In this document: positions 2,881-5,800 of the stretch, piece after piece | How the letters are laid out: each line of letters begins with the position of its first letter | Position numbering within the stretch: the first letter of the stretch is position 1 | From: Mycteria americana | Taxonomy: Eukaryota; Chordata; Aves; Ciconiiformes; Ciconiidae | Direction: 5' to 3' | DNA length: 64,000 nt | NCBI RefSeq assembly: GCF_035582795.1 | Contig: NC_134390.1 | Location: forward strand, 665,060-729,059 | Notes under the pieces: model-generated | The model's input: the letters and a program-made list of their open reading frames with translations, nothing else | Told to the model about the DNA's origin: nothing | Databases searched by the model: none | Program-made: the position numbers and the translations under genes

Positions 2881-5800
2881 ATGCCCGGCCGCCGCCCGCT
2901 CCGCCTCGCAGCCGCCCTCGCCATCCTCCTCCTCGCCGCCGTCGCCGCGCAGGACCGAGACCTCCGTGAGTACCGGCCCCCCGACCCCCCGAGAGGAGCC
3001 CCGGGATTTGGGGGTGGGGGGGTGGGGGTGGGTTGGTTTGTTCGCAGGGAAATGGGGGAGCGGGGGGCGGCGGGGAGGGGGGCGGAGGGAGGCACGGGGG
3101 GACAGCGTGGGACACGGGGGGACTGCGTGGGACACGGGGGGACAGCGTGGGACACGGGGGGACAGCGTGCGATGGATGGGGAAAGTTTAAGGATAGTGGG
3201 GGGAGACACTCGGGGATGGGGGGGACAGCGTGGGACACTGGGGGACAGTTTGGGATGGATGGGGACAGCACAAGGAGAGTGGGGGACAGTGTGGGGACAC
3301 TGGGGGACACTGGGGGATGGATGGGGACAGCACAAGGAGAGTGGGGGACAGTGTGGGGACACTGGGGGACAGCCTGGGATAGAGGGGGGACAGTGTGGAA
3401 TGGAGGGGGAAAGTTTCAGGGTAGTGGGGGGGACAGCCTGGGATGGAGGGGGACAGTGTGGGACACTGGGGGACAGTGTGGGATGGATGGGGACAGCACA
3501 AGGAGAGTGGGGGACAGTGTGGGGACACTGGGGGACAGCCTGGGATAGAGGGGGACAGTCTGGGATGGAGGGGGGATAGCGTGGGATGGGTGGAAAAAGT
3601 TTCAGGGTAGCGGAGGGGGGGGACAGCCTGGGATGGGGGGACACACCGGGGGACAGTGTGGACTAGGGAGGGACAGCGTGGGACACTGGGGGACAGCACA
3701 AGGAGAGTGGGGGACACCGTGGGGACACTGGGGGACGGCGTGGGACACTGGGGGACAGTGTGGAATAGAGGGGTGTGGGATGGATAGGGCAAGTTTAAGG
3801 ATAGTGGGGGGGACAGCTTGGGATGGAGAGGGCAGTGTGGGACACTAAGGGGACAGCCTAGGACACTGGGGGACAGCCTGGGACACTGGGGGACAGTGTA
3901 AGGGCAGTGGGGAACAGCCTGGGACAGAGGGGGACAGCCCGAGATGGGGGGGGGGACGGCACTAGGACCATGGGGTACACATGAGACAGCGGGGTGCAGC
4001 TTGGGGACAGCAGGCTACAGTGTGGGGACAGTGGGGGACAGCCTGGGGTGCAGGAGATGGGCTGGGGCAGGGGGCATGGCAGGGACACTGGGGTACTGCT
4101 GGGGGACAGTGGGGGACAGCCTGGGGACATGAGGTACACTCTGGGATAGCGGGGAACAGCCGAGGGACGTGGGGGGCAACCTCGGGACAGCAGGGTGCAG
4201 CCTGAGTCACAGGGTCCAGTTGGGGACACCAGGTGCAGCTGGGGACAGGGGGTCCAGCCTGGGGACACTGAGGTCCTGCCCTGGGGTACGTCCTGGGGGT
4301 GCTGGGGCACATCCTGGGGACTGGCCTGGGGACACTGGGGGACGACCTGGGGACCCTGGGGACACCAGGGCACATCCCAGGGACCCTAGGGACACCAGGG
4401 CATCTCCTGGGGATCCTGGGGCACATCCCGGGCACCCTGGGGACATCTTCTGGAGCCACTGCAGCACATCCCAAGGTCCCTGGGGACACCAGGGCACGTC
4501 CCGGGGACACCGGGGCACCTCCTGGGGACCCTGCTTGTGCAGCCTGGGGACCCTGGGACACTTCCTGGCCACCCTGGGGTACCTCCTGGGGACACCAGGA
4601 CACATCCCGGGGACCCTGGGGCACCTCCGGAGAGCCTGGGGTGCAACCTGGGGCCACCAGGGCACCTCCTAGGGACACTGGGGTGCAGCCTGGGGACAGC
4701 TGGGCACTGCTGGGGACCCTGGGGTACCTCCTGGGGACACTGAGCCACATCCCAGGGAGCCTGGGGCATCTCTGGGGGACCTGGGGGTGCAGCTCCGGGG
4801 ACACCAGGGCCCCCCCTCCCCCGAGACACTGGGAACACTGGGGATGCTGCCCACGTCCCACCGGAGGTGCAGGGGCTGCAGGGACACACTGAGTGTCCCC
4901 AAGCCGGGGGGACACCGAGTGCCATCGGGGTCCTCAGGCTGGAAACCCCTCGCTGAGCCACCACCCCGCTGCTCTGGGACCCCCGGGGGGGTGGGGGGGG
5001 GCTCGCTCCTCCTCCCCCCCCCTCAAACTAGGAGGGTTTTTTTGGGGGGGGGGTCATCTCATAATCAGCGGGGTGGCAGTGCCACCACCTCCACCACGGG
5101 TGACTGCGGTCCTCCCCGCTCTGTCCCCCCCCCCCAAACCCTCTCTGGGGGTGACACCATCCCCATCTCCCCGCCGTATTCCACCCCCCCAACCCCCCCC
5201 CACCCCCCCCCACCTTCTCCCCGCAGCCGAAGCAGGCAGCTGCCTGCAGGACGGGCAGAGCTATAGCGATAAGGACGTATGGAAGCCGGAGCCGTGCCGT
5301 ATCTGCGTGTGCGACACGGGGACCGTCCTCTGCGACGAGATCATCTGCGAGGAGCTGCGGGATTGTCCCAGCCCCGAAATCCCCTTCGGAGAGTGCTGCC
5401 CCATATGTCCCACTGACCAACCCAGCGGTTGTAATTTATTTATTCCCTCCTTTCATTAATAAATAAATTACCCGGCCATGGATGGGCTTGAGGGGGGGGA
5501 ACATCCATGGGGAGCCCCAGGGAAAAGGCAACTTGTGCCCCACCCCCACCCCCCCCCAAAGGGGGTAAAAAAAAAAAAAAAAAATCATCCCAGGGTGGAA
5601 AAATCCTTTTTTTTTTTTTTTACCCCAAAAGGCAGCTGGCTTCAAAGCCTGGAGGGTTTTGGGGTGGTTTTTTTTTATAAAATTCCTTGAAAGCAGATGG
5701 GTTTGGGGTGCAGGGGGGTGATGCTGGGGGGGGGGGAACCATGTATCCCCCCCCCGCCCCGGGCGGCCCAGCAGAAGGAACATTCAAATGGGGTTTCCAT

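Follow-up and report, generated by a model that had tools for sequence, protein, structure and literature searches.

Does the perfect A/U-rich hairpin that lies directly behind the donor of COL2A1 exon 2 in Mycteria americana belong to a splice switch of the kind described in mammals, and which donor would it control? The question was addressed in a window of 64 kb (NC_134390.1, positions 665,060 to 729,059, forward strand), in whose coordinates all positions below are given; the exons, donors and stem-loop elements described lie on the + strand. An initial annotation had read the hairpin as a clamp on the weak donor of the alternative exon and had linked it to the mammalian choice between isoform IIA (exon 2 included) and IIB (exon 2 skipped). 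Gene, exon, very weak donor, hairpin and the IIA/IIB link were retained, whereas the target of the clamp and the main form of the stem base had to be revised.

The gene is presumably COL2A1, a name taken from the exon pattern and from the protein sequence. The coding part of exon 1 was placed at 2881-2965, ending in phase 1 before GTGAGTAC; this was the sole candidate to pass a signal-peptide filter, and a motif search for exon 1, run before that filter, gave no candidate. Exon 2 (5227-5427) encodes a VWC domain, its translation matching Pfam VWC (PF00093) with an E value of 7.1e-17. Being 201 nt long, it is an in-frame cassette exon, the frame being kept whether it is included or skipped. Exon 3 (6198-6214) comprises 17 nt (QPGPK) and is followed by the donor GTAAGG. 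Joined to exon 1 it reads ...DLRQPGPK; the human IIB junction is given as QDVRQPG in PMC6275061. Further collagen-helix exons with GT donors were found from 6793 to 19892, 43 in the set left after some candidates were dropped. With the VWC match, the in-frame length and the helix exons downstream, the earlier assignment as COL2A1 exon 2 was upheld.

Two repeat arrays were observed in the same window. A minisatellite of 34 copies of 32 bp occupies 8267-9359, in the COL2A1 intron between the exon ending at 8257 and the exon starting at 9399. A long array of GTGCAAGGCTGTG-like units, in which several periods between 20 and 180 bp are nested within one another, spans 29977-32478 and carries long stop-free frames on both strands; three of these frames were compared with Pfam and matched no family.

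The IIA donor (GT at 5428-5429, GCG/GTTGTA) is very weak: each of three measures ranked it lower than every one of the 43 helix-exon donors. Using a human donor frequency matrix, it scored -2.27, compared with 4.11-12.66 for the helix-exon donors. With a matrix derived from the same 43 donors, each left out in turn, the score was -5.66 against 3.95 to 13.09. Pairing with U1 reached -4.4 kcal/mol, in a register with a bulge, whereas the 43 donors ranged from -5.8 to -13.6 kcal/mol. The departure from consensus at all four positions after GT was likewise found (+3 to +6: T, G, T, A). The exon end GCG, which had been called poor, is so at -3 and -2, whereas the G at -1 is the consensus base.

GTTGTA is in fact a tandem donor: a second GT (5431-5432, GTT/GTAATT) lies 3 nt past the IIA GT and forms the first pairs of the stem. 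It scored 2.93 with the human matrix, -0.91 with the 43-donor matrix and -1.4 in U1 energy. By these measures it too stands below all 43 helix-exon donors, and relative to the IIA donor it is better on both matrices and worse on U1 energy. Splicing at 5431 would keep the frame and add one codon, Trp (SGWQPGPK). PMC8899160 describes isoform IID as extending IIA by three nucleotides, and isoform IIC as containing the initial 34 nt of exon 2; it gives both a low prevalence and calls IID a minor isoform. By position and frame, the GT at 5431 matches the IID donor and is a candidate for its counterpart in the bird. The minor status of IID counts against a bird form of the mammalian switch.

Where the IIC donor would stand, after 34 nt of exon 2 (5261-5262), the sequence reads CAGAG/CTATAG, and no IIC donor is present at this place because the site has CT instead of GT. 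Another GT, at 5277 (GAC/GTATGG, 50 nt into exon 2), scored 2.86, about equal to the IID donor, and its use would be frame-shifting. This candidate could in principle stand in for the missing IIC donor.

The hairpin consists of a U-rich 5' arm (5431-5444), which contains UUAUUUAUU at 5436-5444, a pyrimidine-rich loop of 13 nt (5445-5457, CCCUCCUUUCAUU) and an A-rich 3' arm (5458-5471) with two overlapping AAUAAA hexamers. All 14 of 14 positions form Watson-Crick pairs (100% complementarity), and the stem begins at intron position +4; arms, loop and coordinates are as first described. The stem is followed by CCGGCC (5472-5477), which provides the partner for either of two base extensions.

Chance was evaluated by shuffling. 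None of 20000 mononucleotide shuffles and none of 5000 dinucleotide shuffles of the 41-nt hairpin segment reached 14 bp. The maximum was 11 pairs in 2000 further dinucleotide shuffles of this segment and 12 pairs in 2000 dinucleotide shuffles of the first 100 nt of intron 2. The 14-bp stem is not explained by base composition, and the inverted repeat is non-random. Two 53-nt folds gave z values of -3.69 and -4.63, with 0/200 equally stable shuffles in each. When 121 nt including the GC-rich flanks were folded, the total energy was ordinary (z -0.07; 92 of 200 shuffles had equal or greater stability), and the centroid retained only the 14-bp stem. The signal is thus perfect local pairing, not unusual stability of the junction as a whole, and the ordinary energy of the 121-nt fold counts against reading the locus as a switch.

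Among the perfect hairpins of at least 12 bp listed for the 64-kb window (loop 3-30), 17 in number, 8 have 14 bp or more; the other seven of these eight are registers of A/T or G/C tracts, which intron 2 carries at two sites. A sample of 200 kb from this genome, taken as 20 stretches of 10 kb, gave a list of 7 hairpins with 12 bp or more, and none of the 7 attained 14 bp. The hairpin segment is 80.5% A+T, and no equally A+T-rich stretch of 41 nt occurs elsewhere in the first 20 kb. In the 60 nt that follow each of 44 other COL2A1 donors the longest stem is 8 bp, and the idea that such a hairpin is commonplace in the introns of this gene was accordingly rejected. The hairpin was also rejected as a general feature of donors of VWC exons, on the basis of one paralogue with at most 4 bp in 60 nt and 6 bp in 100 nt. 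This paralogous VWC exon (1400-1700 of L002, contig C22; donor GTACCG), from a presumably COL1A1-like locus, has no comparable hairpin.

Intron 2 itself contains a second perfect hairpin, in which 5562-5581 pairs with 5607-5626 (20 bp, GGGGTA15 / T15ACCCC, loop of 25 nt), as well as a poly-G tract (5939-5952) and a poly-C tract (5971-5984) between which 14 bp of pairing are possible. A scan of the window with Rfam returned 0 families at gathering score. Relatives of exon 2 were sought in the set viral_contigs, where none was found, and in genome_contigs, where 42 pattern hits gave 0 confirmed relatives.

Folding results are thermodynamic predictions for naked RNA. Folding of the exon 2/intron 2 junction, as suggested in the initial annotation, predicted the 14-bp stem at a mean pair probability of 0.92-0.97 in nine of nine sequence contexts. 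Its base can be extended in two competing ways, across a UU bulge (5426-5428 with 5472-5474, -12.3 kcal/mol) or across a CC bulge (5427-5430 with 5474-5477, -12.5 kcal/mol). Mean pair probabilities over the nine contexts were 0.06-0.28 for the UU form and 0.20-0.78 for the CC form, the latter being likelier in all nine. The UU-bulge base was rejected on these grounds as the main form, yet in the 53-nt stretch 5425-5477, which includes the partners of the CC form, it is the energy minimum, and the two bases are therefore close in stability. The three additional pairs originally proposed across the UU bulge are thus possible, but usually a minor form compared with the CC-bulge base.

With the stem intact, the mean probability that the IID donor is unpaired was 0.01-0.05 in the nine contexts. 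In silico changes were introduced into the 3' arm alone, the 5' arm alone or both. Following changes in the 3' arm (three contexts), unpaired probability rose from 0.01-0.05 to 0.75-0.79 at the IID donor and from 0.03-0.07 to 0.79-0.90 over the U-rich arm, and at the IIA GU it barely moved, from 0.05-0.11 to 0.07-0.10. Changes in the 5' arm gave unpaired probabilities of 0.44-0.66 for the IID positions and 0.59-0.85 for the arm, and lowered that of the IIA GU to 0.02-0.04. Changing the two arms together restored the stem (0.94-0.96). In these simulations the stem would govern whether the IID donor and the U-rich arm are accessible. The earlier placement of the clamp on the donor at 5428 was abandoned, as the stem starts on and covers the GT at 5431 and the U-rich stretch instead. 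Release of the IIA donor by opening of the stem was rejected as well, the IIA GU staying paired in silico after the arm changes. This predicted failure to expose the IIA GU counts against a bird form of the mammalian switch.

The IIA GU is predicted to remain covered after opening of the stem because a 5-bp exonic hairpin then pairs it (CAACC-CAGC-GGUUG, 5418-5431, -4.0 kcal/mol). This hairpin covers the IIA donor and is predicted to compete with the base of the intronic stem; its mean pair probability rose from 0.03-0.21 to 0.48-0.80 on changing the 3' arm (eight contexts). In simulated nascent RNA starting at 5380, it stood at 0.60-0.79 for ends up to 5457, at 0.35 for an end at 5471 and at 0.07 for an end at 5480. 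In simulated nascent RNA the IID donor was unpaired at 0.69-0.85 for ends from 5440 to 5465 and at 0.01 from 5471 on. In a fold of the complete exon 2 and intron 2, the IIA GU paired most probably with the distant 5988-5989 (0.52), beside the C tract. This predicted partner would count against models of local pairing, including the bird form of the mammalian switch.

A further reading is an RNA switch with two states at the tandem donor, in which the exonic hairpin would form first and the intronic stem later; as an account of the locus we consider it unlikely. In the nascent transcript the exonic hairpin (5418-5422 with 5427-5431) would cover the IIA donor and leave the IID donor mostly free. 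Once the A-rich arm and CCGGCC had been transcribed, the 14-bp stem would bury the IID donor and the U-rich arm, with G5431 and the base extension as the points at which it competes with the exonic hairpin. If such a switch were true, the proportions of IIA:IID:IIB would report folding kinetics against binding of a TIA-1-type factor.

In our assessment, the weak tandem donor of COL2A1 exon 2 and the adjoining A/U hairpin are probably the bird counterpart of the mammalian switch. In the mammalian gene the strands of the stem reportedly act as a U-rich enhancer (5') and an A-rich silencer (3'); in the window the strand composition fits, with a U-rich 5' arm and an A-rich 3' arm. The exon, its donors, their weakness and the non-random inverted repeat are observed in this DNA; formation of the hairpin in cells, binding of a factor and an effect on splicing are what we infer, and the most likely sequence of events would be the following. 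Closure of the hairpin would make both the IID donor and the U-rich enhancer arm double-stranded, U1 snRNP would be left with the very poor IIA donor, and exon 2 would tend to be skipped (IIB). In chondroprogenitors, a factor of the TIA-1/TIAR kind that binds U-rich sequence may bind the 5' arm, which is transcribed ahead of its A-rich partner. The bound factor would hold the hairpin open and recruit U1, resulting in inclusion of exon 2 (IIA), and choice of the +3 donor while the hairpin is open would yield IID. TIA-1-type binding in progenitors would thus compete with closure of the hairpin, and closure would favour skipping.

Another reading, which we hold possible though doubtful, is that the linear sequence matters, with the U-rich arm as a site of the TIA-1/HuR type together with the pyrimidine loop, and that the hairpin is incidental. 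It overlaps with the bird form of the mammalian switch, since the switch needs the U-rich arm too. Counting both strands, the window contains five matches to UUAUUUAUU, of which the arms account for two, where 0.05 would be expected, and TIA-1 acts on U-rich stretches 3' of donors according to PMC9311317. A purely linear site, however, leaves the exact A-rich complement at 5458-5471 unexplained, and a stem-loop is named in the very title of the mammalian work (McAlinden et al. 2005).

The pairing itself could have arisen incidentally, from an AT-rich micro-repeat of the TTTA/TAAA kind that is present in both orientations and adjoins the donor by chance; it would then play no part in splicing. 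The arms do contain UUUAUUUA and AAUAAAUAAA, and intron 2 would on this reading be a generator of inverted repeats because perfect A/T- and G/C-tract hairpins occur at two further places in it. Such an origin is rather unlikely, as the pairing extends beyond the repeat into GTAA/TTAC with no mismatch, shuffles of the same letters failed to reach the stem in both large sets, the first 20 kb hold no second stretch of 41 nt with as much A+T, and a distance of 3 nt separates the hairpin from a donor of exceptional weakness. Concealment of a premature poly(A) signal in the A-rich arm appears very improbable: AATAAATAAA is present on the sense strand at 5458-5467, and its overlapping hexamers would be buried in the closed stem, but they follow simply from being the complement of UUUAUUUAUU.

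If the bird form of the mammalian switch is true, a splice switch of cartilage collagen would be placed in a bird at base resolution, with the tandem IIA/IID donor preserved. As the probable avian version of a switch that is known from mammals, the locus is best regarded as real and useful for comparison, not as a new mechanism. Two comparative points are worth keeping, namely the position of the stem over the IID donor and the loss of the IIC donor. PMC12627340 reports an in vivo removal of the IIC donor after which IIA and IID increased and IIB decreased, with no skeletal or gross morphological difference. A bird naturally without this donor would provide a natural test of whether the full change to IIB is possible in its absence. 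Because the IID donor supplies the first pairs of this fully paired A/U stem, use of IID is further predicted to report opening of the hairpin. No account of this avian hairpin was found in the literature searched, which is weak evidence, the primary papers lying outside that search.

As for known systems, the link to the mammalian IIA/IIB choice made at the outset is supported by McAlinden et al. (2005, JBC 280:32700), whose title names a weak 5' splice site and an adjacent intronic stem-loop. By their titles, a later study (McAlinden 2007) links TIA-1 and COL2A1 splicing, and Nah & Upholt (1991) report chick limb mRNA with the alternative exon. The locus described here has in common with the mammalian switch the gene, the exon, the weak donor and a stem-loop directly 3' of it, a likeness drawn at the level of layout; on the bird side stand 14 perfect pairs, a 201-nt exon and a missing IIC donor. 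As in isoform IID, the second GT lies exactly 3 nt downstream and in frame; unlike IID as described, it is the first pair of a stem, and in the bird it is a candidate donor. According to PMC9311317, TIA-1 binds U-rich sequence downstream of a donor and recruits U1 via U1-C, and donors can be hidden in structure, as in SMN2 exon 7 and MAPT exon 10. In these as in COL2A1, structure at the donor of a cassette exon would limit access of U1. MAPT and SMN2 are unrelated genes, however, in which the donor itself is hidden, whereas the bird stem is predicted to cover mainly the +3 tandem donor and the U-rich stretch.
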